From Tridacna crocea (lineage: Eukaryota; Mollusca; Bivalvia; Cardiida; Cardiidae): DNA of 64,000 bases. The DNA is taken from contig OX031059.1 in NCBI GenBank assembly GCA_943736015.1, forward strand, positions 42,109,159 through 42,173,158. The letters are read 5' to 3'. Numbering within the stretch: the stretch's first letter is position 1; the number at the start of each line of letters is the position of its first letter. This document shows, piece by piece, positions 7,307-63,309 of the stretch. The notes under the pieces were generated by a model. The model was not told where the DNA came from, made no database searches, and worked only from the letters and a program-made list of their open reading frames with translations. The translations under genes were made by a program, and so were the position numbers.

Positions 7307-7529
7307 AGTTATATGTGTAACATCTTTTAAAGATAAGTTGTGCAAATAACGCTTATACAGTTTACTCCTTTATCACTCTCGACGATGTGTATGAGTTTTT
7401 ATCAAAAATGCACGACATGAAGTCGGGCGGTGACTTGATATTTCCCAAGATGTTTTGCACTTACCATGCTGATAAAATTAGCGACAACTGAAGTCATTTG
7501 ACACTTAATTCAAAATCGTCAGAACAGCT

Positions 7530-7883
7530 GAATTACATGTGTATGACGAGCCTTGTGTTTTCTGGGCCACAAAATGTCAGTCCAAATTCAAAGCAGTTGG
7601 TGTTGGCAAATTAAGAGCGGTTCAGATGATGAAATTTGTGTCTTAGACGGGTAAAAACACCCGTGGGATAAGGAGAAAATGCTCATTACTAGCTGTTTTC
7701 AAAGTTGAATTACATGTGTATGACGAGCCTTGTGTTTTCTGGGCCACAAAATGTCAGTCCAAATTCAAAGCAGTTGGTGTTGGCAAATTAAGAGCGGTTC
7801 AGATGATGAAATTTGTGTCATAGAAGGGTAAAAACACCCGTGGGATAAAGAGAAAATGCTGATTACTAGTTAGCTATTTTCAA
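7530..7883 (+). repeat. 177-bp tandem duplication containing a family A fragment
   Basis: 7530-7706 and 7707-7883 are near-identical direct copies starting GAATTACATGTGTATGACG and containing GGTAAAAACACCCGTGGGAT and GAGAAAATGCT from a decayed family A hairpin. The small number of differences implies a recent tandem event. Confidence 0.85.
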
Positions 7884-14515: not shown

Positions 14516-14758
14516 TTAACCCATTACGCTGTACCAGACGACAAATTCATTGACTCTTATGTATTCGAAGCGTTTGCAGACGACAAATTGATATGGTTAA
14601 ATCGTTCAATTTTGTATTTGATAGGGTGCATGGAAAACATGGTGTGAAAAGGAGAAAATGCTGGTAACCAGCATTTTCTTCTTTTCGCACATGTTTTCCA
14701 AAAGTCTTCTTGTTCAGAATTGTTTAAAGACTGAATTGTTTGATAATAAAGTGTTGAA
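14516..14758 (+). mobile_element. Family A element, partner of an inverted pair
   Basis: TTAACCCATTACGCTGTACC to GTGTTGA; hairpin intact around GGTAACC. Seven bp separate it from the opposite-orientation copy at 14766. Confidence 0.75.
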
Positions 14759-14765
14759 CTGCTTT

Positions 14766-14994
14766 TTAACCCATTACCACACAATCCCTACTTTTGACAC
14801 CCCTGAGAAAGAAGACTTTAGAAAACATTGTGGGAAAAGGAGAAAATACTGGTAACCAGCATTTTCTCCTTTTCCCACAGTGTTTTCTACTCTTAACAAA
14901 ACAAATTTCAAATATTCAGTCACTTTTATCTTGTCGTCTGTAAATGCTTTCAATTTGGACCAGTCTAAAATTTTGTCGTTTGGTAAAGGGTTAA
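14766..14994 (-). mobile_element. Family A element, well preserved
   Basis: TTAACCCATTACCACACAAT to TCGTTTGGTAAAGGGTTAA. The two ends carry different subtypes (CATTACCACAC and CCTTTACCAAAC). Hairpin nearly perfect. Confidence 0.82.
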
Positions 14995-15274
14995 TAAAGC
15001 AAATGAAAATTTAGATCGACAATGAAATAGCAAATGTTACAGTTTCGCAGTCCTTTTGGCCAACAGACAATTACATGTATCTCGTTGAAAATAAAATGAT
15101 AGACCGAAGATCATACTACACATTCTGTCCAGTCAGATCTTGATCTATACTATCGGCAGAAGTACCTTGAGATGATCTACACAACACCAGGGCTAAAACT
15201 CCTTCCCCGCATACCTTTATCTTAGATATGTCCACATCGATACTATTTGACAACGATATATTAAGTCGGAGTCT

Positions 15275-37800: not shown

Positions 37801-40800
37801 ATCCGGTAGCACCGTCTGTCATCACCACCGGAAATAGATTACCGGCGAATCGAAAGTACTCCACATATGAACGTGAGTGCTCACAAAAAATGACAATTTT
37901 TATCGTAAAAAACAAATGGATTTACAAAACATTCACGAGGCATAGTTAGTGGATATAATAAGCTTCCAACGTAAGTAGGATTTGTTGTTTATTAGTAAAT
38001 TTGAAGGGTTTAGCGACTAGAAATCCTTAGAGCTGGTACCGAAAAACAAATTGTATTGTGACATTTATTTTCATTTTTTCCAAAAAAGTGTGCACAAATT
38101 CCAGATTTTTTTAATCATGATGAAGTAAAATTATGGCTGACAGATAAATTTATTACTGTTTTACCTCAAATCGAGGGATTAAGCAAATTTTTTGTCAAAA
38201 CGAAAATTTCATTGTGGACGGCGAATAGATCCTTATGTGGACGGCTTATAGCTAAATCCCCAAAATTACGTGTACGGCGAATAGTTTTGAGCTTTTTAAC
38301 AATATGTGCACAAACACATATGTTCAAGTCGTATTGAGTTCGTGCCAGGAACATGCAATAGAAAACACTATACTCAGTTTACATTTCAGATTAATGATGT
38401 CAACATACAAGTGTTATTACTGCCCTGAAAAACCGCCAAACTTTGAGAAAACTATTCAGCACCTCATAAATTGCCACCAAAATGACGAAATGCGTGTCAG
38501 GCAATTACAAGAACACAAACTGCGAACGATTAGTTTCAAAGTGATTCCAGAACTATGTAGAGAACAGGGGAGGACCATAACAATCGATTCCACCAGAGAA
38601 AAAATTCACAAATCAAAGGCTAATGTGGTGCCTAAAGATAGCCCTTTTAAAAAACTGATCAGACTAGAGGGTATCTGTAGTGACAGTGACACTTTCAACA
38701 ATGTAGAGCATATTTTGTCGGGACAGGGCCAAACTGGTACCGAGGAGTCTTGTGATACAGATCTGTCTGGTTGTAGCGAGTACATTGACGATACCAACAA
38801 TATCTATGACGAATTAGTTTCTCTGTTGCCTAAAGTAATTGACACTTTGAAAGAACACGGAAAAATGCAGGAGTTTCTTTCATTCAACAGGCTTTTAAGT
38901 GAAGATAAATTTCCGCTCGATAACATTGCGTTTCTTCTGTTCTTAGATGTTGTGAGATGGTTAAGCTTAGAGGAGACTGCAACGCGTATGCGGTATAGCG
39001 ACGAAGTGAAATGTTTTTGGCGCACAGGTTTGAGGTTATTTCACGGTCGTTTTCTAAGATTTATGGGAGGACCAAAAAAACAAGGGACAGATCGTGTATG
39101 ACGAAGCTACTCCGGGTTACTTAGATCCGGAAATTTATCTTCACTTAAAAGCCTGTTGAATGAAAGAAACTCCTGCATTTTTCCATGTTCTTTCAAAGTG
39201 TCAATTACTTTAGGCAACAGAGAAACTAATTCGTCATAGATATTGTTAGTATCGTCAATGTACTCGCTACAACCAGACAGATCTGTATCACAAGACTCCT
39301 CGGTACCAGTTTGGCCCTGTCCCGACAAAATATGCTCTACATTGTTGAAAGTGTCACTGTCACTACAGATACCCTCTAGTCTGATCAGTTTTTTAAAAGG
39401 GCTATCTTTAGGCACCACATTAGCCTTTGATTTGTGAATTTTTTCTCTGGTGGAATCGATTGTTATGGTCCTCCCCTGTTCTCTACATAGTTCTGGAATC
39501 ACTTTGAAACTAATCGTTCGCAGTTTGTGTTCTTGTAAATGCCTGACACGCATAATTTCGTCATTTTGGTGGCAATTTATGAGGTGCTGAATAGTTTTCT
39601 CAAAGTTTGGCGGTTTTTCAGGGCAGTAATAACACTTGTATGTTGACATCATTAATCTGAAATGTAAACTGAGTATAGTGTTTTCTATTGCATGTACCTG
39701 ACACGAACGCAATACGACTTGAACATATGTGTTTGTGCACATATTGTTAAAAAGCTCAAAAATATTCGCCGTACACGTAATTTTGGGGATTTAGCTATAA
39801 GCCGTCCACATAAGGATCTATTCGCCGTCCACAATGAAATTTTCGTTTTGACAAACAATTTGCTTAATCCCTCGATTTGAGGTAAAACAGTAATAAATTT
39901 ATCTGTCAGCCATAATTTTACTTCATCATGATTAAAAGAATCTGGAATTTGTGCACACTTTTTTGGAAAAAATGAAAATAAATGTCACAATACAATTTGT
40001 TTTTCGGTACCAGCTCTAAGGATTTCTAGTCGCTAAACCCTTCAAATTTACTAATAAACAACAAATCCTACTTACGTTGGAAGCTTATTATATCCACTAA
40101 CTATGCCTCGTGAATGTTTTGTAAATCCATTTGTTTTTTACGATAAAAATTGTCATTTTTTGTGAGCACTCACGTTCATATGTGGAGTACTTTCGATTCG
40201 CCGGTAATCTATTTCCGGTGGTGATGACAGACGGTGGGTAGGGGTAAGCCACGGGAATTCACTAAAAAGAACTGTACCGGATTTTGATAATGCTCCTCCC
40301 AGAAAGGGTTAAAAGCATGAAATAAAAAAAATTTTTTTTCTTTCACCGAAAATGTCAAATATCCTCTATTTTTATAGCAGGACAACGGTTGAAATAAGCC
40401 TACGTGACGGCCGGAAATAATTTTCAAAGAAGAACAGTTTTAAATGTCCCATGATAGTTTCTCATTCTAATTAAGCGGCTGATAAAGTGGAAGAATAATG
40501 TCCATTACTTTTTTAGATTGTCAAAATCATTTGATATTTCAACCATTCACTTTATGAATTTGTTTAATCCCTCAAGAGCTCAAGATTTGGAAGAGCGTTG
40601 CGTGAAACGCCTTTTCGCCCTTTGTCACACAATTTCAACTTTTGACAACCCTTGGGAATAACCTTTTGAAAACTTTGTGGGAAAAGGAGAAAATGCTGGT
40701 AACCAGCATTTTCTCCTTTTCTCACAAAGTTTTCTACCCTATCAAAGAAAAAATAAGTCCTTTGAGCCACGATTACTTTTAACGACCCTGGGGGATAAAC

Positions 40801-43800: not shown

Positions 43801-46800
43801 TTTACTTCTTGCATATTGTGACCTATTTATCCCTTTGTAAAACAATTCCTTGTTTCAACAGGCTGCTTATAGATGTCTTTATGAAAACATCGTTGAAAAA
43901 GGAGAAAATGCTGGTTTCCAGCATTTTCTCCTTTTTTTCACAATGTTTTCTCTTCTTTAGAGACAAATTGTATTATTAGATCTTTAGAACTCCTTCAGAC
44001 GACCTTCTTTCGTCTTGTAGCAGACTTCCTCTCTAAACCATAGCATTACACAGGTCGTTGTTATTACAGACAACGTGTTCAACACATAGAATTAAGACTA
44101 TATACAGAGACATCGGTCGAAACTTTCTGCTACTGATAAATTTTCTGCATTTCCGAGGACCATTCTATCTCCGGATTCAATCGATTGTTTATCCATAATT
44201 TTGTAATGACTTGCTTTATATAATGCTTGTGGGAGATACCTTAAACCCTCTATCCCAAGACAATGGATGCATTAGAATTGAGGTCAAGGGTATACTTTTG
44301 GCGTGATAAAAGATTGACATTCTTAACTCTTTACCACACGAGAAAATTTTAGACTGGTCCAAATTGAAAGCATTTTCTCCTTTTCCCATAGTGTTTTCAA
44401 AAGGTTTCTTTCTTAAGGGCGTCAAAAGTAGGGATTTTGTGGTAATGGGTTAATGAATTTTCTGTTGCAGTTAGAATGCTGTGGAGCATACGGGGGTATC
44501 AACGACACACATTCCTGGGCAATCTACAAACTACATTCACAATGGTACACACAGACACAAATGAGTAAGTTACTTAGGCTGTCTTCCCCCAAACCTCCCC
44601 CACTTTGCAAATTTAAAAAAAAAACAATCCTGTATTTGACCCACCCTATCAATGAAATACAACCAAGCTATGTCCTAGGTCAAAAGTGTTGTTCAGCCAC
44701 TGGATATGACATCCAAGACAGTAGATCAGCCTACAAGGAGGCTAAAAGTGTAGCTCAACTACGGGATATGATATCCTAGAAAGTAGACCTTGCCTACAAG
44801 GAGGCAAAAAGTGTCTTTCAGTACCTGGATATGATATATATGAAAGTAGATTTGCCTCCAAGGAGGCCAGATGAGTAGTACAGTAACAGGATATGATGTC
44901 ATAGAGAGCATACCTGCCTACAAGAAAGCGAAAAGTGTCGTTCAGCAACCGGATATGATGTCCAAGAGACTAGACCTGACAAGGAGTCCAAAAGTGTGGT
45001 TTACCTACTGGATATGATATCCAAGAAAGTAGATAAGCTTAAAAGGAGGCCAAAAGTGTGGTTCAATTACTAGATATGATATCCAAGAGAGTAGACCAGC
45101 CTACAACAAGTGGCTTCTTTAAAAAAGAAGCCAGGAGAGGTCGACATCATTTTTTTCTAATACTTTTTATGCTTTTAGGTTAAATATATCTAGGTACATG
45201 TAAAGAAACAAGCAAGACAATAAACGGGTAGTTGAAATCTGTTCAGTTGTAAATATACATTCATCAAAGTGGATGGCAAAAACAGGATTCCGTATTCATC
45301 CGTCCTTGTAATTTATGTAAGTCACACGACCTTCTTCCCGCGTTTTAAGGTCACGTGATTTTTTCTGCTGTGTCCGTTTCTATTTTTAACGAAATTCTTT
45401 TTTCTTTTTCTTCTTTTTGTTAAGATTTAAGATTGTAATACAAAATTAAAATTGTTGGAAAGGGAATATGTAATTAAATCCTTACAATTTTGTTGAAATT
45501 CGTGATATAGAAACAAACCACGTCTATTTCCTATTTCAGTTTTTAGACTTCGATTTCTTTATAAAATCATGACGAAACAGACTGTGTATCGGAACAATTC
45601 CCCTACAAAGATTGGATTTAGACAGCAATTTCTGAGGCAGTCTGCCTTTTAAACTCAACACTGTTGGAGAGGTCTGATGACCTCTCCAATGAGGCCAAAG
45701 GGGTCGTTCAATAAAAGCTTTATGGCAAATGACACAATGTGTTAAATAGCTAAAGTTATTTGGACTCTGTAACAATATCAGTCCAATAAAAATAATTTTG
45801 TTTACTATGTCCTGTACTATAAAACTCGCAGAAAAATTCTTGTTAGATTTACATGCGATCGTTCAAGTGTATGATTCAGTCACAGTTATGCATTACCGAT
45901 CTTTACTGTAAAGTTATAACCTTTGCCTTGTCTTTCTCCCAGCTGCAGCCCAACATCGAGGCTGTATATGAATGTTGAAGGAACAAAACTAATAACGATC
46001 AAAATTCTACCCCAAAAGAGACCGGGTTATATTTCTTCTTGCTTCAGAATGTCTTGGTGGTCAAGAACATCTGTATCTATTTTTTTTTATCTGAAGGGTC
46101 ATGTTTTACTTTTTAGCTCCTAAAATCAAAACAAAAGTGCTGCGAACAAAAATATCACTGTGAAGAAATTGCATAGTGAACATAAACAATGGTTTGATGT
46201 TAGAATTATTGTGAAAAAACATCGCCGTCAAACTAAAACTAGCCCTTAAAGAGCAATGTTTCGTTTTGGATTGGATGTTTCCAAAAGGCCTGCTGCCTGA
46301 CAAGGAATGTCATCAGTAGATAGAGGTATAAAGCTCAATTTTTTGAAATTGAAGTGATGAATTAAATATACATTGATAACGTTCAGTGAATCTTCAGATA
46401 CTTAGTTAAATCGGCGTAATATATCGTTATACTTCAGCGAGTTATATTTGATATGCATTAGATAGCCTATGGCAATCAGGTTTTACGATTCAGTCAGCAT
46501 TTTAAAAAAAAAAACACCTTTATGATAACTTTATAGATCACATGGCCTCTAACCAAAATGTTATATTTTTTAATTTTTTATTTACCCTACCTTTTTGTTT
46601 TATTTATGAGGTGTTAAATGATCTTAGTGGAAGAGAATATTGTGGTAAAATAGAGAAAATGCTGGTAAACGGCATATTTATCTTTTTTCCACAATGTCTT
46701 CTATTCTTTTTCATAATTTGAACAAAAAAAATGTACGAATGTTTTTTTAAATGGACGAATTCAAACTTCTGCCGGCTGTTAACAGTTCGAGACAAAATGT

Positions 46801-49760
46801 GCATAATTTGAGCATTTTTGCATCTAATATCTCTCTGTACCAAAACTTCGACGTCGGCTTCGATCAATGTGTAATTTTGGAGGGGAGTTTCACCTTTCTA
46901 TGAAAACTATTTGCAATAACTAAGGAGCGCATTTTCGGTTGTTTTTACATAATTATAATATATGGCCGACACATTTTTGTCTCTTCCGAATATCTCTATG
47001 TATTGTGCCAAGATCACGTGACTGACTGGATCAATGAAATTTCGTCGTCACGTTTTCGAAAGAGGTGTGCTGCAAGATAGAAAAAGTTGCTTGCAAGCAT
47101 ACTTGTTAGTAACCAAAGGGAATTGTTGACTGTGTACAGTGCAGAGCAAAAGGTTTCTCTGTTGTAATTCAACGCCAGAGAACCCTTTGCGGACGGTGTA
47201 GATCAAACAGCTTGTAGTCTGATTTTAAACCTACACTGTGCACTGCTTCCTTATCTTAGATTCTTACAGAAACGCACTTTAAATTGCTATGCTTATTCCA
47301 GTTTTCTCCGTTTAGGAATATCTATTTTCATTAATTGAACGCTTCAATAGTTCACTACATGCAGAAAATGTTAACCTTTTGACCAGTATACTTTCTGTTT
47401 TTGTGCCTAGTACTATCATTTGTGTCATTCAGCTCTTTGCACATTTTGATCCAGTATACTTTCTGTTTTTCTGCCTAGTACTATCATTTGTATCATTCAG
47501 CTCTTTGCACATTTTGATCCAGTATACTTTCTGTTTTTGTGCCTAGTACTATCATTTGTGTCATTCAGCTCTTTGCACATTTTCAGGAGTGCCGTATGTA
47601 CCCGATTCCTGTTGCAAAGGCAGCAAGACAATTTGTACAGGGACGGAAGAGATCTTCGGACCTCCAACCCGCGGGCCCCCGGTCGAGTTACGATACCAAA
47701 AAAACGAGAACTTATACACGGAGGGCTGTTATGATAAACTTTTATCCCACTTGGAGAGGAACGCTCTCATTCTAGGGGGCGTGGCGGCCTGTGTACCTTT
47801 ATTACTGGTAAGTTGAGGAAATATAGTCTTACCAATTCTTGGAGACCTTAACGGCGCGTAATGCAATTTGACCATCTCTGTGTAGCAAGCAAGCTGTAAG
47901 TGTATGAGTCACGCTCTGACAATAGGGGGTTAAATACGCCGCATGATACCAAAGAAGATACCACACTATTATAAATCAATAAAACCAGTTCTGTATAACA
48001 GCCAACAAAATCACGAGTTACTCTGGTGCTTTGATATACAAGACATTTACGTAAAGCAAAAAGTTTCGACTAAGGTCAGCCTGCGCAGATTGCGCAGGCT
48101 GACCTTGTTCGATACTTTTTGTCGCTGTATGAAGCCCAATTTTCACATAGCATGACTTTTACACTGCATCCAAACAGAAGGCATATATGTTTTAGTGTAT
48201 CTGTTCTTCGCGAAAACCCTTCTCAAACAAGCACATTTTTGTGTGTCCCTCAGATGCTTGCTTAAGACAAGTGATATTGTAAATTTGCATTTTAGTGGTC
48301 CCAGAAATTACGCGTTCTTGATAAAAAGAAAAGGAATATGCAGACCCCAGCTGCATCCTTTCATGATACGTAAAGAATAATTTCCATTTGCTGCCGCCCC
48401 CACACTCCGGCATCGTTCCACACAAGATCATAAAATGTGAGAACTTTCGTCAAAGATACTACTGTTTTTCATCTAAGAGAATGTCTCTTTTTATGGCATG
48501 GAAAATGTATTGACAGAGCCAGTTATCCTTTTATCACCGTAGTTGAATCTTTAGTGAAAAGTGCATTGCACTAGAATATGCCAATAAATTTATGCAGAAA
48601 GTCATGTGATCAAGACAACACGATACCATACAGTGGAATCTAAATAAATTTCATGTTACTATGACATGCTGTTTAGAGTACATATTGAAGAAACGATAAG
48701 AGCACTTTCTTGAAATGAGATCTTGTATAATAGCAGGTGTTTCCGTTCTTATAATGAATGTTATTAATTTTTGATGAGATTAACTCAACTAAAACTTGGA
48801 TTGGCTTGACAAGAGCACATGTCCCTTGGTATTTCTGTACTTGATTTGACAAATGACTATCTTTATTTTGTGGAAGTTTTATTACTTCAGGTCCTGAAAT
48901 TGAATATTTTGATCTATTTACTCGCTATGCCTTTTTTGTCTCTGCATCGGTAACTTCTTTTGAAATCACCTTGGTTACGGAGCTCTAGATAGAGGGCGTG
49001 ATTTTGTTTTCAAAATTGAAAATATTGATCTTTCTCCACTAAACCCTTTGTTATGGGTACTTATTAGAATCGTCTCATCGAGACGAGTTTAAATTGTAAT
49101 TTGTACACTGGTAAAACCTACGTAAAAGCAGTTTCCCTTTCGGGAGCCCCGTGTGCATGACTAGAGTATCAACACAACATCCAAAATGGCGCCGTCAATC
49201 AAGATTAACATCAAGATTATGCGCCATGCAGAACGTTTTAGCACGTATTACCAAGATTTCAGTGACGTCAGTTCTCAGTGACGTCTGTTTTTTATTGAAT
49301 TGGGGCACTCAGAAGTGAAATTTTACTTCGTCAGCGTACCCTTTTTTTAAACCCGAAAACCACGTATATTCGCTTAACACACGTTGGGGTGGTAAAACTT
49401 TGCAATAAAAAAATCGTTGTACGGTCAGGTGGCAGGGGACTTGGCAGCTTGTTCACGGGTATGGCGATTCATGTCGCTACGTCGCCTTCGGCTCGGGCGA
49501 CATGATTCCCCGGTAAGCAAGTTTCAAAGTCCCTTGCCACCTGACTGTACAACTAATAAGGTAGGGTAAAACTGCGAGAACTCGAAATAGATATGAAGCC
49601 ACCTATTAATTGGTTGTGGACTGATAAATTTGTTTGAAGGTTAAGAAAGTTAATTTTCTTTTTTTTTTTTAAATTTCAGATTATCGGAATAGTTGTGATA
49701 TTCTGTTTGTGCGCAAGAGTCGGTAAATATGAAGAAGATGACGACGGATTTGATGTGTGA
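25754..49760 (+). CDS. Tetraspanin, eight coding exons, complete
   Basis: Tetraspanins are four-pass membrane proteins that organise partner receptors into membrane microdomains. Joining 25754-25813, 29151-29288, 34871-35071, 42907-42981, 43674-43793, 44471-44564, 47587-47807 and 49680-49760 gives 329 residues and a TGA stop. Every intron is GT-AG; all junctions are phase 0 except exon 6/7, which splits an Arg codon. Membrane segment 1 (about 59-82) has the usual Asn (62) and G..G.W. Segment 2 (about 102-122) ends in CGCCG, followed by RE..C. Segment 3 is about 134-155 and segment 4 about 288-313. The large loop holds LECCG (199-203), sequon NDT (209), PDSCC (235-239), C246 and C277, giving six cysteines. 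The cytosolic N-terminus, about 58 residues, is longer than usual for the family. Juxtamembrane C50, C53 and C60 are possible palmitoylation sites. The tail is acidic and ends FDV. The PDSCC motif recalls CD151/TSPAN4/9/18-like members, but I cannot fix the orthologue. Confidence 0.93.
26120..26310 (-). mobile_element. Family A, decayed
   Basis: GAATCCTGATTTTCAACGTC, AGAAAATGCGAGTAACCAGC and TTGTTTGCAAATGCTCTAAA; intron 1. Confidence 0.45.
26515..26700 (-). mobile_element. Family A, decayed
   Basis: GAGAAAATGCTAAATAGCAG hairpin remnant followed by CGTCAGCGCCTGCCTTCAAT; intron 1. Confidence 0.4.
26767..27219 (+). mobile_element. Family G element with 5' hairpin
   Basis: A hairpin of about 165 bp (26768-26933, loop near GAGTGGCGCAGCCAC) is followed by a body starting TTATGCTTTTAACCCTTTCT and ending GGAAAGCATGAAATAA. 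The ends TTTATTTTATGCTTT and AAAGCATGAAATAA are inverted. The body carries two GACGTCA-like sites. In tetraspanin intron 1. No open frame of note. Confidence 0.75.
27542..27785 (-). mobile_element. Family A element with modified outer arms
   Basis: TTAATGCTTTACACACACAC to CCGGTAAAGTGTTAA. The arms read CATTGAGGAAAAAAGGAG and TTTTTCCTCAAATG, a matched change from GTGGG. Intron 1. Confidence 0.72.
28105..28335 (+). mobile_element. Family E element
   Basis: ATTGAATCATGAGGCAGAAT, a hairpin with GACTGCGCGGACTGCGCA, then GCAGATGCATTAAACCCTC. Intron 1. Confidence 0.65.
29151..29288 (+). CDS. Tetraspanin coding exon 2 (N-terminus, start of TM1)
   Basis: Follows a T-rich tract and TTGCAG acceptor and ends at CTC|GTAAGT. 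Its 46 codons in phase 0 give a basic cytosolic stretch, then CFSCLRTAVHCYNIVIL, the membrane-proximal Cys cluster and the first half of transmembrane segment 1 with the family Asn. Confidence 0.88.
29645..29845 (+). mobile_element. Family A element
   Basis: TTAACCCTTTACCAGACGAC to TATGTGGCAAAGGGCTAA; lacks the GCATTTGCAG segment. Intron 2. Confidence 0.75.
30083..30295 (-). mobile_element. Family A, decayed
   Basis: AACCCTTTACAAAAAA start, eroded hairpin (AGTAAATACTGGTAAATAGC). Intron 2. Confidence 0.45.
30797..31033. mobile_element. Family D double-hairpin element
   Basis: GCTTGCATCACGCGAAAAGG start. The first hairpin is short; the second is AAAGTGCCGTCTAGGATTAG/CCTGCGCTCCGCGCAGG. Intron 2. 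Confidence 0.65.
31589..31790 (+). mobile_element. Family A, decayed
   Basis: TACCAGTCGACAGAATTTTA and ACTTGCAGATGACAGG are kept; hairpin largely lost. Intron 2. Confidence 0.45.
32205..32433. mobile_element. Family A, alternative core subtype
   Basis: TTAACCCTTTACTACAT start and GATGTGGTGAAGGGTTAA end. The hairpin inner core is GAAATTGCTCG/CGAGCAATTTC, not GAAAATGCTGG/CCAGCATTTTC, and the internal flanks also differ. Intron 2. Confidence 0.72.
32440..33484. other. Intron 2 sequence without recognised elements
   Basis: AT-rich, no open frame of note. Confidence 0.5.
33485..33711 (-). mobile_element. Family A element
   Basis: ACCCTTTTCCAAACAATCCC to GTCGTTTGGGAAAGGGTTAA with perfect CATTGTGGG hairpin arms around GGTAACC. 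The subterminal CCTTTTCC and GGGAAAGG changes also match. Intron 2. Confidence 0.82.
34071..34215 (+). mobile_element. Family A, decayed
   Basis: TTAAACTCTTGACCTGACGG and a hairpin remnant AAAATTTTGGTGGCCAGGAT. Intron 2. Confidence 0.45.
34526..34605 (+). mobile_element. Family H, head fragment
   Basis: ATTACTGTACTGCAAAGAAA and TCGCGATCTGATTGGATACT match the head of the copy at 20671. Intron 2. Confidence 0.5.
34629..34686. mobile_element. Family E-type hairpin
   Basis: Arms CGAAAAGTGTCAGCCCTGGT and ACCAGGTTGACACTTTTCG; directly follows a family H fragment in intron 2. Confidence 0.55.
34871..35071 (+). CDS. Tetraspanin coding exon 3 (TM1 end, small loop, TM2)
   Basis: Acceptor TTTTTTTCAG, donor TTT|GTAAGT, 67 codons in phase 0. 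It completes segment 1 (ILGLGVLGIGIWLLV), gives a small extracellular loop of about 20 residues, and ends with segment 2 and the diagnostic FCGCCGTMREDKCVLAF stretch. A family A mobile element begins 17 bp past the exon end. Confidence 0.96.
35088..35311 (-). mobile_element. Family A element 16 bp after the exon 3 boundary
   Basis: TTAACCCTTTGCGACACAAT to TTTGGTAAAGACTTAA; hairpin partly eroded. Sixteen bases separate the exon 3 end at 35071 from the TTAA, leaving only the core donor site. Confidence 0.72.
35538..35622 (+). mobile_element. Family E, right half and tail
   Basis: GACTGCGCAGGCTGACAAGT, then GCAGATGCATTAAGGC. Intron 3. Confidence 0.5.
36135..36292 (-). mobile_element. tRNA-derived SINE
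   Basis: On minus: GGCCCTGGTTGTATGGTCG head, B box GAGTTCGATACCCGGG, then a body through CCCACACATTCAGCGCGAGT. Intron 3. Confidence 0.6.
36645..36867 (+). mobile_element. Family A element
   Basis: GTCTTTACGAAACAAAATTT to GATTGTTTGGTAAAGGGTCAA; hairpin AATGCTGGGTTACCAACATT. Intron 3. Confidence 0.75.
37433..37514. mobile_element. Family C hairpin
   Basis: CACTGACCTTTAGCGGACAG with both arms meeting at ACATAACATG; intron 3. Confidence 0.65.
37593..37809 (-). mobile_element. Family G copy, first part, split by the foldback element
   Basis: Reverse complement of the 3' portion of the G copies at 26767 and 62700. It begins TTTATTTTATGCTTTCCGG, includes the ATATGACGTCATTTACC stretch and is interrupted after GGTAG at 37809. 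Confidence 0.8.
38214..38284 (+). repeat. Three 15-bp direct repeats inside the foldback arm
   Basis: GTGGACGGCGAATAG (38214-38228), GTGGACGGCTTATAG (38237-38251) and GTGTACGGCGAATAG (38270-38284) lie about 110-180 bp before the Met pair at 38394, with mirror copies in the other arm. They could be transposase or promoter binding sites; that is inference. Confidence 0.5.
38304..39101 (+). CDS. Unrecognised C2H2-finger protein fragment, left arm plus centre
   Basis: Open frame of 265 residues from the first ATG at 38304. The likelier start is the Met pair at 38394-38399, preceded by an acceptor-like TTACATTTCAG. Counted from 38304, Cys37, Cys40, His53 and His58 form a CX2CX12HX4H zinc finger, followed by a basic stretch and an acidic Ser/Asp-rich stretch. 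The arm ends after DKFP. The frame continues through the unique centre with NIAFLLFLDVVRW, a YSDEVKCFWRTG stretch and FHGRFLRFMGG before a stop. The unbroken frame from arm into centre suggests left arm plus centre is the original orientation, cut short before any catalytic domain. I do not recognise the family. A finger at the N-terminus suits a DNA-binding transposon protein, but that is inference. Confidence 0.55.
   Translation: MCTNTYVQVVLSSCQEHAIENTILSLHFRLMMSTYKCYYCPEKPPNFEKTIQHLINCHQNDEMRVRQLQEHKLRTISFKVIPELCREQGRTITIDSTREKIHKSKANVVPKDSPFKKLIRLEGICSDSDTFNNVEHILSGQGQTGTEESCDTDLSGCSEYIDDTNNIYDELVSLLPKVIDTLKEHGKMQEFLSFNRLLSEDKFPLDNIAFLLFLDVVRWLSLEETATRMRYSDEVKCFWRTGLRLFHGRFLRFMGGPKKQGTDRV
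39107..39742 (-). pseudogene. Mirror copy of the C2H2-finger frame, right arm
   Basis: The same frame in inverted orientation, 211 residues. It matches the left-arm protein through DKFP, then ends a few codons into the centre (DLSNPE). Differences include Ser to Arg and Glu to Val before the finger, an extra Ile after NDE, and Gln to His shortly after. The Cys and His ligands are kept. It is read as the duplicated half of the foldback rather than an independent gene. Confidence 0.6.
40237..40376 (-). mobile_element. Family G copy, second part
   Basis: Continues the interrupted G copy collinearly: a GGTAGGGGTAAGCCACGGG stretch, then CTCCTCCCAGAAAGGGTTAA, then AAAGCATGAAATAA and the TTTCACCGAAAA/ATATCCTC outer flank. 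Confidence 0.8.
40617..40979 (-). mobile_element. Family A element with duplicated hairpin core
   Basis: CCCTTTGTCACACAATTTC to TTATGTGGTAAAAAGTTAA, but with two complete hairpins (about 40667-40736 and 40801-40872) separated by a repeat of the ACTTTTNACNACCCTNGGG segment. Both hairpins have CTTTGTGGG arms. About 130 bp longer than the norm. Intron 3. Confidence 0.75.
41015..41152 (-). mobile_element. Family A, 3' part only
   Basis: AAGCATTTTCTCCTTTATGT then ACTTGTCGTCTGCAAATGCT. Intron 3. Confidence 0.5.
41300..41505 (+). mobile_element. Family A, decayed
   Basis: GAATTTGCAGACGACAAACT and an eroded hairpin (AAATACTAGTCAACAGC). Intron 3. Confidence 0.45.
41666..41878 (-). mobile_element. 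Family A, decayed
   Basis: TTAACCCTTTACCGAACCGA start; hairpin reduced to AATACATTGTGGAAAAAAG and TTGCTCAAATG. Intron 3. Confidence 0.5.
42203..42320 (+). mobile_element. Family C element, best copy
   Basis: Starts TTAACCCCTAGGCTGCTTAG, then GCGACTCACTGACCATCTGC, then a hairpin with arms GGACAGTGTAGATCAAGATC/AGACTGCACG, ending CTGTCCGATAAAGAGATA. Intron 3. Confidence 0.7.
42907..42981 (+). CDS. Tetraspanin coding exon 4 (TM3)
   Basis: Acceptor TTTTTTCAG, donor GAG|GTAAGT, 25 codons in phase 0. It encodes YGVTLTLVLLLLIGGSVLAF plus FRAE, a single hydrophobic segment ending in an Arg-Ala-Glu border that leads into the large loop. The short single-TM exon matches usual tetraspanin gene structure. 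Confidence 0.95.
43674..43793 (+). CDS. Tetraspanin coding exon 5 (large loop, first part)
   Basis: Acceptor CATTTCAG, donor CAT|GTAAGT, 40 codons in phase 0. It encodes a hydrophilic helical stretch (SSVKQHIVDTL to DAWDSMQRH) in the position of helices A and B of the large extracellular loop, ending just before the CCG exon. Confidence 0.93.
43829..44035 (-). mobile_element. Family A element close to the exon 5 donor
   Basis: TATCCCTTTGTAAAACAATT start about 35 bp after the exon 5 end; hairpin around CTGGTTTCCAGC intact; the 3' end is degraded. It fills much of the 677-bp intron 5. Confidence 0.65.
44333..44454 (+). mobile_element. Family A, internally deleted, next to the exon 6 acceptor
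   Basis: TTAACTCTTTACCACACGAG, ACTGGTCCAAATTGAAAG, then directly CATTTTCTCCTTTTCCCATA and the usual right end TTTTGTGGTAATGGGTTAA. One hairpin arm and the middle are gone, leaving 122 bp. The end is 16 bp from the exon. Confidence 0.8.
44471..44564 (+). CDS. Tetraspanin coding exon 6 (CCG motif)
   Basis: Acceptor TTGCAG, donor A|GTAAGT, 31 codons plus one base. It encodes LECCGAYGGINDTHSW, the conserved CCG motif and an Asn-Asp-Thr sequon. The acceptor lies 16 bp beyond the TTAA end of an internally deleted family A element, so that element borders the branch-point zone. Confidence 0.95.
44682..45110 (+). repeat. 62-bp minisatellite, about seven units, intron 6
   Basis: Diverged units start AAAAGTGTNGTTCAGC and contain GGATATGATATCCAAGA and GTAGACC..GCCTACAAGGAGGC. 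It begins 118 bp after exon 6. The ATATGATATCC and GCCT...AGGAGGC portions give each unit weak internal symmetry. Confidence 0.9.
45111..47188. other. Intron 6 sequence, mostly unassigned
   Basis: Apart from one decayed family A copy and a small TTGGAGAGGTC/GACCTCTCCAA hairpin at 45663-45688, nothing recognised. Confidence 0.5.
46609..46725 (-). mobile_element. Family A, decayed
   Basis: AATATTGTGGTAAAATAGAG and AAAATGCTGGTAAACGGCAT hairpin remnant. Intron 6. Confidence 0.45.
47189..47242. mobile_element. Family C hairpin, eroded
   Basis: TTGCGGACGGTGTAGATCAA, TAGTCTGATTTTAAACCTAC. Intron 6. Confidence 0.5.
47383..47586 (+). repeat. Three 68-bp tandem units ending at the exon 7 acceptor
   Basis: Units start at 47383, 47451 and 47519 with CCAGTATACTTTCTGTTTTT. 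The last unit ends exactly at the splice AG (GCACATTTTCAG), while units 1 and 2 end GCACATTTTGAT and so lack the AG. Confidence 0.92.
47587..47807 (+). CDS. Tetraspanin coding exon 7 (PDSCC, end of loop, TM4 start)
   Basis: Acceptor ATTTTCAG, donor CTG|GTAAGT. Two bases complete the split Arg codon, then come 73 codons. It encodes VPDSCCKGSKTIC, a proline-rich insert (GPPTRGPPVE), EGCYDKL and the first half of segment 4. The acceptor forms the exact end of the third copy of a 68-bp tandem repeat. Confidence 0.95.
48056..48163 (+). mobile_element. Family E element
   Basis: Near-perfect hairpin GGTCAGCCTGCGCAG/ATTGCGCAGGCTGACC followed by an eroded tail. Intron 7. Confidence 0.6.
48979..49088 (+). 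mobile_element. Family F, left half
   Basis: GGAGCTCTAGATAGAGGGCG to the hairpin centre GTCTCATCGAGACGA, then broken off before family H. Intron 7. Confidence 0.65.
49095..49562 (+). mobile_element. Family H element with strong terminal foldback
   Basis: GTAAAAGCAGTTTCCCTTTC body as at 20757. The hairpin 49416-49553 has arms GTTGTACGGTCAGGTGGCAG and its reverse complement, with an inner ATGTCGC/GCGACAT stem. Intron 7. Confidence 0.65.
49680..49760 (+). CDS. Tetraspanin coding exon 8 (TM4 end, tail, stop)
   Basis: Acceptor AAATTTCAG after a long T run; 26 codons and TGA at 49758-49760. It encodes the end of segment 4 (IIGIVVIFCLCARV) and the short acidic tail GKYEEDDDGFDV. The last three residues Phe-Asp-Val fit a class II PDZ-ligand pattern; function is inference. 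I found no convincing AATAAA in the next 700 bp. Confidence 0.93.
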   Translation: MIGIVVIFCLCARVGKYEEDDDGFDV

Positions 49761-56800: not shown

Positions 56801-56819
56801 GTTATTTGTGCTAAATGAA

Positions 56820-57048
56820 TTAACCCTTTACCAAACAACAAAAATTTAGACTAGTCTAAATTGAAAGCACTTGCAGACGACGAAATAAGAATTACTCAAA
56901 AACTGAACATTGTTTCCAGCAGGGAAGAAAACAATGTGGGAAAAGGAGAAAATGCTGGTTACCAGCATTTTCTCCTTTTCCCACAATGTTTTCAAAAGGC
57001 TTCTATCTCAGGGTCGTAAAAACCAGGGATTGTTTGGTAAAAGGTTAA
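56820..57048 (+). mobile_element. Family A element, well preserved
   Basis: TTAACCCTTTACCAAACAAC to GATTGTTTGGTAAAAGGTTAA; full hairpin around GGTTACC. Best example of the CCTTTACCAAAC end subtype at both ends. Confidence 0.85.
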
Positions 57049-57089
57049 TCAGTTGTTGTGTAATGATATATTTATCCATTCCAATATAC

Positions 57090-62699: not shown

Positions 62700-63092
62700 T
62701 TCATGGAGTGGACACCATCGGTAATATTACCGATGTTGTTCACAAGATGAATAAATTTCCATCTTTCACAAAAAAAAACAACAACATCAAATATTCTATT
62801 TATTTCAAGCTTTTAACCCTTTCTGGGAGGAGCTTTATCAAAATCCAGTACAGAGCTTTTCCGTTAATCCCCCTGACGTACCCATCCCGCATAGCAACGT
62901 ATTACAATATTACGTCAAGCGCGAGAAATGTAAGGTAAATGACGTCATAGTTCCATCTGGTTCTGAGGCACGCGCAATGAACCTAGGCAACAAGAACATG
63001 AAAATAGGTATTTTCACTGGTGGTTCCAGTGTAAGATCGAAAAATATTTTCACTGCTATTTCTCGATATCCTACCGGAAAGCATGAAATAAA
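62700..63092 (+). mobile_element. Family G element, shortened hairpin
   Basis: Same body as the copy at 26767, but the 5' hairpin is collapsed to a short ATCGGTAATATTACCGAT palindrome. It ends AAAGCATGAAATAA directly against a family E copy. It serves as the empty-site comparison for the foldback insertion. Confidence 0.75.
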
Positions 63093-63309
63093 TCTCTATG
63101 ATGCATGATACCAAACAAGTCACAACATAGTTATTGATCCATGAAATCCATATTGTTTAACCACCGATTGAATCATAAGGTACGCTGGTCATGGGAAATT
63201 TTTCAAGAGATGAAAGTTTCGACCCAGCCCAGCCTTCGAGGACTGCGCGGACTTAGCAGGCTGATCTGAATCGATACTTTTTAAGCCTTCTTTTCACAGA
63301 GCATGACTC
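63093..63309 (+). mobile_element. Family E element abutting family G
   Basis: ATGCATGATACCAAACAAGT head, hairpin near GAGGACTGCGCGGAC, tail TTTTCACAGAGCATG. Confidence 0.6.

Follow-up and report, generated by a model that had tools for sequence, protein, structure and literature searches.

The 64-kb window, that is, the whole stretch of DNA that was analyzed (positions 1-64000), contains an element with inverted arms that is, with high probability, a non-autonomous foldback: the 5' end of a coding DNA transposon was inverted-duplicated at least twice, with the products subsequently moving as units. The element has the features by which foldbacks are recognized, namely long inverted arms, a short centre, a target duplication and dispersed copies (Table 1). 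A mobile foldback, formed when a larger coding transposon had its 5' end duplicated in inverted orientation, had already been proposed in the first-pass annotation of the window, and this proposal is borne out by the identification of 22 two-ended copies in the genome, with exact 5-bp duplications at 17 of the 21 insertions that can be considered independent.

Anatomy of the element

The two arms are 98.9% identical according to blastn, differing by 9 mismatches and one 3-nt gap. The arm lengths of 1106 and 1109 bp and the identity of the 20 bp at both ends, as annotated at first pass, were recovered by blastn and by pattern search, respectively, and the GGTAG reported on either side of the element is, indeed, an exact 5-bp direct repeat. 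Within the window, the terminal sequence CACCGTCTGTCATCACCACC, with up to 3 mismatches allowed, matches the two element ends only, compared with a chance expectation of 0.

Table 1. Features of the foldback element and of the related uninterrupted site, in coordinates of the 64-kb window
Feature	Position	Strand	Evidence
Left 5-bp target-site duplication, GGTAG	37805..37809	.	Exact direct repeat with the right side
Arm A, 1106 bp; 5' end of the parent, made up of a leader and the beginning of the coding gene	37810..38915	+	blastn, coding homology
Terminal 20 bp, CACCGTCTGTCATCACCACC	37810..37829	+	Pattern search of the window and the genome
Three subterminal repeats of the GTGGACGGCGAATAG type	38213..38284	+	Pattern search
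Open frame representing a 5' fragment of the gene of the parent	38394..39101	+	ORF and homology
Centre, 212 bp; continuation of the parental gene, not duplicated	38916..39127	+	blastn, genome search
Fold-back junction	39127..39128	.	Worked out on copy L012; 18-mer shared by 20 of 22 elements
Arm B, 1109 bp; the same 5' end, inverted	39128..40236	-	blastn
Second gene fragment, in inverted orientation; 227-aa open frame, counted from stop to stop	39107..39790	-	ORF
Terminal 20 bp, inverted	40217..40236	-	Pattern search
Right 5-bp target-site duplication, GGTAG	40237..40241	.	Exact repeat of the left side
Paralogous empty site, an uninterrupted relative of the flanks	62713..63135	-	Alignment

When the insert and one GGTAG are removed, the flanks of the element align with the paralogous empty site without gaps over 79 bp (62844-62922, minus strand) with 61 of the 79 positions identical, a value derived arithmetically from the alignment score and the coordinates. 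The uninterrupted relative of the target described at first pass, with 40 gap-free bp, is thus real, and its extent was understated. In a wider alignment, the insertion point is located inside one gap-free block (62789-62989), and the similarity extends in both directions.

Large near-perfect palindromes are a classical hazard of genome assembly, so that an inverted join of a single real arm could, in principle, produce a structure of this kind. This is extremely improbable in the present case because each arm carries its own mutations, the same structure is common to 22 two-ended copies with different exact duplications, and an uninterrupted relative of the target is present.

In addition to the three subterminal repeats, the core CGGCGAATAG has a further match with one mismatch at 37843; altogether, it is matched 3 times in the arm leader with at most 1 mismatch and 4 times with at most 2, and the remainder of the window contains none with 1 mismatch or fewer. 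These leader motifs may be binding sites for a protein, the transposase being a candidate. The open frame of arm A starts with a CxxC..HxxxxH pattern that is followed by a conserved FPLDNIAFLLF...RFLRFMGGPK block. An extra A in the centre shifts the frame of the window copy, which has 7 A at this position; the other copies that were caught by the pattern, 17 of 21, have 6 A. The search of Pfam with this ORF yielded no match, and its inverted copy gave one match, below the cut-off; the best hit in PDB had an E-value of 0.34, and the single-sequence structure prediction has a mean pLDDT of 41. The hairpin predicted for a transcript (851 nt) has a folding energy of -635.3 kcal/mol, compared with a mean of -211.5 for 20 shuffled sequences, as expected of any such inverted repeat. 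Scans of the window for tRNAs and for Rfam families found none.

Apart from the foldback, a MITE-like repeat of ~235 bp is very dense across the window (for example, 1681-1915, 14757-14995 and 56819-57057). The ends of this repeat have the form TTAACCC(A/T)TTACCACAC..GTGTGGTAA.GGGTTAA, the central palindrome GGAGAAAATGCTGGT(T/A)ACCAGCATTTTCTCC is present in 10 exact copies, and a 66-nt core is found in 29 copies at 60% identity or higher within the 64 kb. The TTAA ends are suggestive of what is, presumably, mobilization of the piggyBac or Kolobok type. The window also includes tandem arrays at 7529-7869, 44677-45106 and 47377-47583, with periods of 177, 62/183 and 68 bp.

Copies in the genome and two junction classes

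The window's own 1.05-Gb assembly, consisting of 31 contigs, was searched for copies of the element. The first 201 bp have 40 scored matches among 47 candidates, with 99-100% identity. Absence of the termini from the rest of the genome had been named at first pass as evidence against the foldback; the 20-bp end, however, occurs 46 times in the assembly with at most 1 mismatch (44 exact occurrences and 2 with one mismatch), compared with 0 occurrences of the reversed control pattern. Of these ends, 43 belong to the 22 two-ended foldbacks (43 rather than 44 because the right end of L029 exceeds the mismatch limit), and the remaining three are lone ends, namely L026, in which 444 bp of an arm are left, the truncated foldback L030 and a partial duplicate beside L013 at C6:9126986. 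No other element type with this 20-bp terminus was found in the assembly, and the 25 matches to the centre sequence, in 24 candidates, are all located where foldback copies or remnants sit. Several copies have been altered: an arm is deleted in L009, the centre is shortened in L022, and L027 contains a 1.8-kb nested repeat. This repeat, located in the foldback arm (1826-3600 of L027), itself includes internal inverted copies and GEIGPWGRFL-like translated repeats. In collections of viral contigs and genome contigs, no relatives of the element were found.

Two of the loci, L013 and L016, are 99.8% identical over 3655 bp that include the insertion with its flanks, and are located on two contigs (C6:9117275-9127255 and C3:14493254-14497679, respectively); a 1540-bp stretch is repeated nearby on C6 at 100% identity. 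The duplication of L013 and L016 is either a recent segmental duplication or an assembly duplication, and accordingly, the two were counted as one insertion in a duplicated segment, which leaves 21 independent insertions. An exact 5-bp direct repeat flanks 17 of these (the other four are L010, L015, L024 and L025), and a 6-bp repeat flanks none of the 21. The target sites show a preference for C|ANNNT|G, with A and T at the ends of the duplication in 21 of 34 cases and C and G in the flanks in 20 of 34; because the sites were counted on both strands, this preference is symmetrical by construction.

The foldbacks fall into two classes by the point at which the parental sequence turns back. In the 20 elements of class 1, 1318 bp of parental sequence are followed by an inverted copy of the first 1106 bp, as worked out on L012: the parental sequence ends at element position 1318, and the inverted copy begins at arm position 1106, with an overlap of 1 bp (C). 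The exact 18-mer that spans this junction is present in all 20, the window copy included, and is absent from L029 and L034. The latter two elements comprise class 2, with a 5' segment of ~1791 bp followed by an inverted copy of the first 1013 bp; they contain the shared centre, extend for a further ~480 bp into this gene (...INFVVPDRRSLK...CVDGKKINPCSSGDVNL...) and turn back at arm position 1013. The continuation is homologous to the L031 and L032 proteins discussed below (tblastn), and the genome-wide search with its 483 bp (1814-2296 of L029) yielded 2 matches in 2 candidates, which are L029 and L034 only. The unfolded parent was not found in the 1.05-Gb assembly.

The two junction classes are read as two fold-back events from one parent. 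Given the second junction and the gene continuation that is unique to L029 and L034, the 5' end of the parent was inverted-duplicated at least twice, and the exact 5-bp duplications that flank members of both classes indicate that the products moved as units. Derivation of the arms from the 5' part of a coding transposon, another claim of the first-pass annotation, gains support from this continuation and from homologues that encode frames of 1004-1504 aa.

Origin and history of the arms

Because each element consists of a 5' segment followed by an inverted copy of itself, both element ends correspond to the 5' end of the parent. The parent would have been a coding DNA transposon with CAC..GTG ends and 5-bp duplications. 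The foldbacks would have formed when the repair or copying of a parental copy was interrupted and synthesis folded back (snap-back) or switched template, with the 1-bp overlap in class 1. Subsequent movement would have been of the cut-and-paste type, with the parent or a relative providing, in trans, a transposase that recognizes two 5' ends as a functional pair.

The history of the arms was traced from sequence variants in 17 of the 22 elements; L009, L027, L029 and L034 were dropped because of their alignment, and L016 as the duplicate locus of L013. In these 17 elements, 124 variants are confined to one arm. Among the variants with two carriers, 22 of 25 are found in both arms of one element, compared with an expectation of ~3%, so that the arms appear to homogenize, probably by conversion between the arms inside each copy. 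Consistently, arm A differs from arm B by 0.0073 within a copy and by 0.0107 between copies, with 0 of 10000 shuffled pairings as low; when the four poorly alignable elements are kept, this test weakens to 494 of 10000.

Similarity of the arms within a copy could also result from many independent foldings at one sequence hotspot, each of them recent and starting from one parental copy, and both the concentration of the two-carrier variants in the same copy (22 of 25) and the existence of at least two different junctions fit such a scenario. Nevertheless, independent folding is improbable because the class 1 junction is exactly the same in 20 elements although the overlap is only 1 bp, and because variants that different copies have in common in only one arm indicate shared ancestors that were already foldbacks. 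In particular, the variant in column 802 of the alignment is present in arm A only in six elements, in both arms of the window copy and in arm B of L009, and the variant in column 280 is found in arm B of two elements. Given that the column 802 variant is confined to arm A in the six elements, these probably descend from one foldback with arms that already differed. From these patterns, we infer that the copies descend as foldbacks, with arm-to-arm conversion superimposed on this descent.

A different possibility is that selection has maintained the paired gene fragments because they encode a functional protein, such as a repressor of transposition that binds DNA, for which the short repressors of the P element provide a model, and the open frame is, indeed, free of stops in 18 of the 34 translated arms. 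However, selection of this kind is very unlikely given that the 52 missense, 18 synonymous and 5 stop variants in 17 of the 22 elements compare with a neutral expectation of 51.9, 20.7 and 2.4, respectively (ratio 1.15), and that the density of variants in the same 17 elements is 0.144 in the frame and 0.139 outside it. Judging by these counts, the ORF fragment evolves as if it were neutral.

Coding relatives and the nature of the transposase

The search of the genome with the window ORF produced 150 scored matches of 207 candidates; 58 of the 150 are in foldback copies and the remainder are more divergent. Among the relatives, long open frames are found in L031 (1504 aa), L032 (1214 aa) and L033 (1004 aa), and in all three, the sole Pfam model above the cut-off is YqaJ (E-values of 6.4e-8, 1.8e-9 and 1e-8, respectively). 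The C-terminal part of the protein has 10 matches in 14 genome candidates. Searches of PDB with L031, with alignment A1 and with one segment gave no meaningful match, and no description of this lineage was found in the open-licence PMC literature.

Several related families retain recognizable ends. A 3.4-kb family (L035, L036, L037 and L040) has 82-bp inverted ends that begin with CACCCGGGGTTACC or CACTCGGGGTTACC; L035, L036 and L040 are flanked by exact 5-bp duplications and L037 by an exact 6-bp repeat, GGTATT. The ends of this family can also be described as CAC(C/T)CGGGGTTACC, and matches to the N-terminal region of the protein family that includes the window ORF were found in its members. 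In L031, the left end begins with CACGGGGGTAATACC, and ~645 bp starting from this end are common to 39 of the 40 other candidates that were scored, at 92-93% identity (8282 candidates at first look). The relatives of this left end include L048, a 5.7-kb element that has ~130-bp inverted ends and is flanked by GTTAA on each side. Many places in the genome match the L031 ORF over its first 90-odd codons at ~80%. Judging by the ends and duplications of the related families, CAC..GTG termini, in most cases with duplications of 5 bp, characterize the lineage at large. The search for the right end of L031 extended to ~5.7 kb beyond its ORF and was negative, a search for terminal inverted repeats in L031, L032, L033, L038, L039 and L041 produced no convincing pair, and the 3' part of L038, when searched as DNA, matched, besides itself, only a common unrelated repeat.

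The CAC end led the first-pass annotation to Transib/RAG-like and Chapaev/CACTA elements, and the combination of CAC..GTG termini with 5-bp duplications that is present here is, in itself, compatible with Transib/ProtoRAG. These leads did not hold up: the three long coding relatives match YqaJ and no model of Transib/RAG or of CACTA/Chapaev (CMC), with the reservation that the C-terminal half of the parent itself is not among them. Moreover, the target site of Transib is GC-rich, unlike the C|ANNNT|G preference of the foldbacks, and the duplications of CMC elements, at 2-4 bp according to the pertinent part of PMC4482050, differ from the 5 bp observed here. Assignment to either of these groups is, on this evidence, quite improbable.

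The proteins of the lineage have a C2H2-like start and share several conserved blocks, namely VDGKK..GDID, the YqaJ domain, DGQW, D-x-x-H-x-L-T-x-L-R (varied in L041 and L050) and LEVEQFFGSF. The genuine P-like transposases of the same genome, with 19 matches to PF21787, show a similar order of blocks in the five that were read. Weak matches to PF21787, ending at DGQW, were detected for L031 (E 0.0083) and L032 (E 0.092), and none for L033 and L041; joining both presumed catalytic pieces in three proteins did not improve the match. Comparison of the profiles with P-like transposases using hhalign gave a collinear alignment with a probability of 15.8% and an E-value of 0.0016. When the segments were compared separately, those with DGQW (the second D; 2.9%) and D-x-x-H (33.7%) scored higher, at the homologous position, than each of 100 column shuffles, and scores as high were reached by 87 of 100 shuffles for the first-D segment and by 28 of 100 for the E segment. 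Because of the motif pattern that was used, L050 is missing from the E and H segments; the C-terminal alignment that includes it (22.1%) is above 100 shuffles over the D-x-x-H part only. Tentatively, and with the balance of probability on the other side, the transposase of the relatives can be regarded as P-like, with YqaJ following the presumed first catalytic block and preceding the second, and the transposase family of the foldbacks would then be a YqaJ-containing, P-element-like lineage.

Comparison with known transposons and foldbacks

A possible resemblance of the relatives to the P superfamily (P element, THAP9 and Galileo) concerns the RNase H domain and consists of the weak matches to PF21787 and the collinear D-x-x-H..LR block. 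A THAP domain at the N-terminus is typical of this superfamily, whereas no THAP match was detected in the L031, L032 or window ORFs. The lineage described here differs further in that YqaJ separates the first two presumed catalytic blocks and in that the duplications are 5 bp rather than the 7-8 bp of Galileo and P (given in part of PMC4168063), so that it also departs from the superfamily by the length of the duplication. hAT5 elements with 5-bp duplications exist (PMC12730594, in part), but the three long ORFs have no hAT match in Pfam. Elements of the ISL2EU (PHIS) group share the YqaJ exonuclease domain, but there it is encoded by a second ORF of its own and only the dinucleotide AT is duplicated (PMC4482050, the portion on this group), whereas here YqaJ is inside a single ORF of 1000-1500 aa and the duplications are 5 bp long, which sets the relatives apart from ISL2EU. 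The foldbacks are thus linked to a YqaJ-containing transposon lineage that has not been placed in a known superfamily.

Foldbacks as a kind have long been known, FB being one such transposon. Galileo, which belongs to the P superfamily, Tetris and Tm1 share with the present elements the long inverted arms, the short middle domain and the target duplications (PMC4079207, PMC4168063 and PMC3169594, each in part). In the relevant passages of PMC4079207 and PMC4168063, foldbacks are assigned to the Mutator or P lineages, no autonomous copy of Tetris was found, and the duplications are 7-8 bp for Galileo and 8-10 bp for Tetris, compared with 5 bp here. In contrast to these foldbacks, the arms here can be recognized as the 5' portion of a transposon gene, and the fold points are at 1.3 and 1.8 kb. 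The formation of foldbacks is readable in this case: the parental gene can be recognized and two fold points are kept, with the parent not found in the assembly. The two dozen or so elements are a useful record of the origin and movement of foldbacks and suggest that two identical 5' ends can act as a working transposon pair.

An architectural parallel is provided by Mu killer, a derivative of MuDR in maize, in which, likewise, both termini derive from the transposase side and an inverted duplication of the transposase gene is found ~1.3 kb in; as described in parts of PMC3440606, Mu killer is a single locus that silences MuDR, whereas here there are 22 two-ended copies of another transposon lineage, and the comparison is one of DNA architecture alone. 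This match motivates the hypothesis that the foldbacks are silencers, which makes them a concrete case for asking whether inverted-duplicate derivatives silence their parents. It is conceivable, albeit rather unlikely, that, in an animal-like genome, they correspond to a Mu killer that is mobile and present in multiple copies, in which inward-facing parental 5' ends, together with any promoter, over the start of the transposase gene might give rise to hairpin RNA, so that foldbacks that spread on the transposase of the parent would have silenced it and helped to exterminate it, leaving the foldback remains.
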